Shown: in pieces, positions 7,370 through 10,720 of the stretch | Layout of the letters: each line of letters begins with the position of its first letter | Numbering within the stretch: the stretch's first letter is position 1 | Assembly: GCA_016882555.1 (NCBI GenBank) | Contig: VGPQ01000010.1 | Span: 1-12,217, forward strand | Origin: Cyanobacteria bacterium M_surface_7_m2_040 | GTDB lineage: Bacteria > Cyanobacteriota > Cyanobacteriia > PCC-6307 > Cyanobiaceae | Direction: 5' to 3' | DNA length: 12,217 nt | Program-made: the position numbers and the translations under genes | Notes under the pieces: generated by a model | Database searches by the model: none | Told to the model about the DNA's origin: nothing | What the model saw: only the letters and a program-made list of their open reading frames with translations

Positions 7370-10720
<3,351 letters not shown>

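Follow-up and report, generated by a model that had tools for sequence, protein, structure and literature searches.

The carB gene in the stretch of DNA analysed here (the window, 12,217 nucleotides) has, as written, lost the second of its two E-x-N-P-R motifs, and the altered stretch is most likely an error in the draft genome rather than a trait of the lineage. The window is one contig (C10) of assembly G000, which comprises 2,121,097 bases in 524 contigs and is 80.85% complete and 5.96% contaminated, figures that suggest a metagenome-assembled genome. The altered bases are present in this picocyanobacterial contig, and a near-identical protein encoded on another contig carries the intact motif. 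Because that copy is intact, we consider a local base-level error, in the assembly or in the consensus, to be the most likely explanation, and we infer that the bases do not represent a rare cell lineage.

The gene is carB by descent. A Pfam scan of its product detected CPSase_L_D1 and CPSase_L_D2 (two stretches each), CPSase_L_D3 and MGS, giving a complete set of two pre-ATP-grasp domains, two ATP-grasp domains, an oligomerisation domain and an MGS-like domain. A first-pass annotation had read ISKRTPAPR at the site of the second motif within a frame that stays open across the altered stretch, and both observations were confirmed from the sequence (Table 1). It had also attributed the change to an AT insertion and a compensating loss of GC. 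Comparison with the closest relatives (L004-L007 and L009) bore this out, with the exact placement of both indels being ambiguous because they sit in short repeats. Read in another frame, the 23 intervening bases (8087-8109) give the normal motif; they are identical to the in-frame bases of L007, a member of the same genus, at 23 of 23 positions, and match those of L004, L005, L006, L009 and L011 at 19-21 of 23. The first motif, in the carboxyphosphate half, is intact, as had been stated. Since the second motif, in the carbamate half, is absent, the sequence as written was not filed as a working CarB.

Table 1. Positions of carB, its altered segments and neighbouring genes in the window.
Feature	Position	Strand	Remark
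carB, carbamoyl-phosphate synthase large subunit	7370..10720	minus	1116 aa, open throughout; Pfam scan and relatives
Second E-x-N-P-R motif site, CarB residues 870-878, ISKRTPAPR	8087..8113	minus	Comparison with relatives
Extra AT (two bases) relative to closest relatives	8110..8111	minus	Placement ambiguous
GC (two bases) missing relative to closest relatives	8086..8090	minus	Placement ambiguous
First-half motif IEMNPRVSR, CarB residues 299-307	9800..9826	minus	Intact
Second small oddity, CarB residues 147-152, KITNTL	10265..10282	minus	P0002 reads GIANTP
Last 12 CarB residues	7373..7408		Common to the window protein and P0002
Adjoining genes for substrate-binding protein (PF04392), ATPase (PF00005) and permease (PF02653)	3056..5752	minus	Probably an ABC importer
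Small PIN-domain protein (PF13470)	6632..7048	minus	Downstream of carB, same strand
DUF3318 gene and rsfS (ribosomal silencing factor)	10826..11858		Divergent from carB

The alignment of close relatives that the first-pass annotation had proposed was carried out. Fifty-nine relatives were searched and 29 CarB genes (L004-L032), with 70-93% identity to the window protein, were cut out. The second motif was intact in all 29, reading IEANPRASR in 27 and LEANPRASR in two. These relatives define 483 invariant columns, and the window CarB departs at eight of them, six of which lie within residues 871-877. Protein searches with residues 860-901 (best 120 of 152 matches) and residues 140-181 (best 120 of 1013 matches) together yielded 221 distinct proteins among the matches listed. 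The motif was intact in 218 of these, and the remaining three (P0127, P0169 and P0174, of 945, 849 and 798 aa) stop short of it or go out of frame ahead of it. The first-pass annotation had raised the case of relatives that share ISKRTPAPR; none of the 29 does, and the altered residues were found in none of the 221 proteins among the matches listed, with SKRTP and RTPAPR both absent from the best 120 of 152 proteins in the search with residues 860-901. Among the listed proteins longer than 1060 aa (201 in number), 334 columns are invariant, and the window CarB departs at five, all in the motif. At the DNA level, the altered pattern occurred in one of 400 family genomes, which was the window's own, and the intact-motif pattern in 269. 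The latter pattern is strict (it missed G013, which reads ILEANPR), and the other 131 genomes are therefore no evidence of loss. As judged from these alignments, the motif alteration is not ordinary variation.

Among the matches listed, the protein that resembles the window CarB most closely, P0002, is also 1116 aa long and is identical to it at 1106 of 1116 residues (99.1%), including the C-terminal tail; the next closest is 92.5% identical. P0002 represents a cluster of 14 member sequences and comes from a single contig of 4285 bases, compared to 12,217 for the window contig. Its second motif reads IEANPRASR, and it departs at none of the 334 invariant columns. Six of its ten differences from the window protein fall in the motif, and the others are at residues 147, 149, 152 and 560. 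The tblastn matches of most relatives stop at query residues 1097-1111, before the 12-residue tail that the two proteins share. P0002 thus looks like an intact copy from the same species, and may come from another strain or from another assembly of the same sample.

Three of the differences from P0002 form a second small cluster, where the window CarB has K, T and L at residues 147, 149 and 152 in place of G, A and P. At the first two of these positions (147 and 149) all 29 relatives carry G and A, respectively, and outside them and the motif the window protein departs at no column invariant in these relatives. We considered the cluster as a further sign of noise. At residue 147, the 221 proteins among the matches listed have G (186), E (15), A (eight), R (three) or a gap (nine), and at residue 149 they have A (206), V (six) or a gap (nine). 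Residue 147 therefore varies in the wider set, and the cluster was set aside as weak evidence either way. Alternatively, the changes at residues 147 and 149 could be taken for another hit on a gene whose selection has relaxed, which would count against an error.

We compared 41 contigs of G000 (462,535 bases, window included) with 1.6 Mb of a one-contig genome, G014. A strict scan for paired frameshifts detected none in G000, the CarB site included, and one match in the control direction (5 of 6 residues); CarB was missed because the flank rule failed at a gap in G014. In a looser scan (204 ORF pairs retained from 594 after dropping overlaps, 63,508 aligned columns), the CarB site was the sole G000 segment that read correctly in a shifted frame, and the control direction gave a single 5-of-7 match that was taken as chance. 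Frame breaks numbered four for 201 queries compared to five for 204 in the control direction, both counts including events close to the beginnings of ORFs, which probably reflect read-through in stop-to-stop ORFs. Two control genes, which we take from their sequences to be ChlH and FusA, departed at 0 of 235 (27 relatives) and 0 of 327 (29 relatives) invariant columns, respectively, against 8 of 483 for CarB. Isolated departures are also seen in relatives: L008 at two of 485 CarB columns, L163 at one of 236 ChlH columns and L195 at one of 328 FusA columns. The examined part of the assembly is thus not full of indels, and with no other paired shift and with clean ChlH and FusA, any error here would be local. 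A hairpin was considered as a cause of slippage and found unpersuasive (z -1.51, with 14 of 200 shuffles folding equally well). According to one source, many of the genes that look like pseudogenes in bacterial genomes owe this to assembly errors (PMC11017572), a general conclusion that, like the Glu841 study cited below, does not concern the particular bases at issue here. Among the literature matches listed on frameshift or assembly errors in metagenome-assembled genomes, none dealt specifically with paired compensating indels.

The first-pass annotation had argued that a lineage with a damaged CarB should need another source of carbamoyl phosphate. The search of the genome did not reveal one. 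It contains one CarB, besides two weak matches with 25 and 26% identity, and the partner gene carA is present on contig C24 (TIGR01368 over cut-off). Nothing in the 81%-complete assembly exceeded the carbamate kinase cut-off (TIGR00746, 358.25), and a weak partial match of 21.1 bits to this model is likely to be another amino-acid kinase. Leaving aside weak or partial hits, none of the 59 relatives searched showed another CarB match of full length. The assembly lacks roughly one fifth of the genome, and the absence of other sources is therefore no proof.

These results bear on whether the bases could be real. A real carB allele that had recently become null or weak in the sampled strain would agree with the absence of any overall surplus of frame errors from those contigs that were compared, with the position of both indels in short repeats and with the occurrence of two small clusters of changes within one gene; as P0002 may be another strain, its intact motif is compatible with such an allele in the window genome. 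We nevertheless consider a real allele unlikely, as P0002 is intact, the altered form is absent from the other 399 family genomes and from the 221 proteins among the matches listed, and CarB is the only source of carbamoyl phosphate found in the 81%-complete assembly. The route by which it would have arisen, two slippage-type dinucleotide indels of which the second restored the frame, is doubtful to the same degree, and so is the accompanying supposition that the cells take up external arginine and pyrimidines or are being lost. A null allele should not be in the majority in a free-living phototroph, and with a single carB and no carbamate kinase over cut-off a defective majority allele is therefore improbable. 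That a free-living strain should have a majority carB allele without the carbamate-phosphorylating motif and depend on another source for arginine and pyrimidines, or for carbamoyl phosphate, seems to us very unlikely.

Should a second carB exist in the missing part of the genome, the window copy could be a spare, but neither the two weak matches in the genome itself nor the 59 relatives lend this any support, and we regard it as highly improbable. A CarB that selection maintains in this lineage for a new role or an altered catalysis could account for the open frame and for a full-length protein with CarB domains. This reading is hardly credible, given that no relative examined has the altered form, that the same-species copy is normal and that the new residues come from reading the old bases in a different frame. 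Of the two readings offered by the first-pass annotation, the assembly error is thus favoured, with P0002 intact and the altered DNA confined to this genome among the 400 family genomes scanned, and a lineage with a damaged or repurposed CarB found no support.

A local base-level error, in the assembly or in the consensus, would have produced the altered bases, and the real CarB of the organism most likely keeps a normal second motif and would be a glutamine-dependent carbamoyl-phosphate synthase of the ordinary kind. It counts against this explanation that a single sequencing error does not usually take the form of two neighbouring dinucleotide indels with the frame preserved, and we stop short of near certainty mainly because the assembly is clean where it was examined, which also speaks somewhat against an error. 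If the bases were real, a free-living phototroph would lack the route to carbamoyl phosphate that is known for it. The gene more likely just illustrates how an error can keep a reading frame open; checks for stops or frame breaks would pass the altered carB, and protein databases would take it up as a false variant of the active site.

In the E. coli enzyme, Glu841 and Asn843 are metal/ATP ligands. The equivalence of the altered site to these residues, claimed earlier, holds on alignment to PDB 1bxr, where residues 871 and 873 of the window CarB fall at Glu841 and Asn843. A literature search for Asn843, Glu299 and Asn301 of carbamoyl phosphate synthetase gave no matching paper. Substitution of Glu841 in the E. 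coli enzyme is attributed to Guillou et al. (1992), as cited in PMC3815217, and by analogy with that work it is plausible that the altered enzyme would fail at the second phosphorylation. Unlike the E. coli Glu841 substitution mutants, which have been studied, the window CarB has its whole motif out of frame, in bases that may themselves be in error. Compared to picocyanobacterial CarB (L004-L008, of the same genus, and P0002), the window protein has the same domains, with 88-93% identity to L004-L008, and differs from them at residues 870-878 and at residues 147 and 149.
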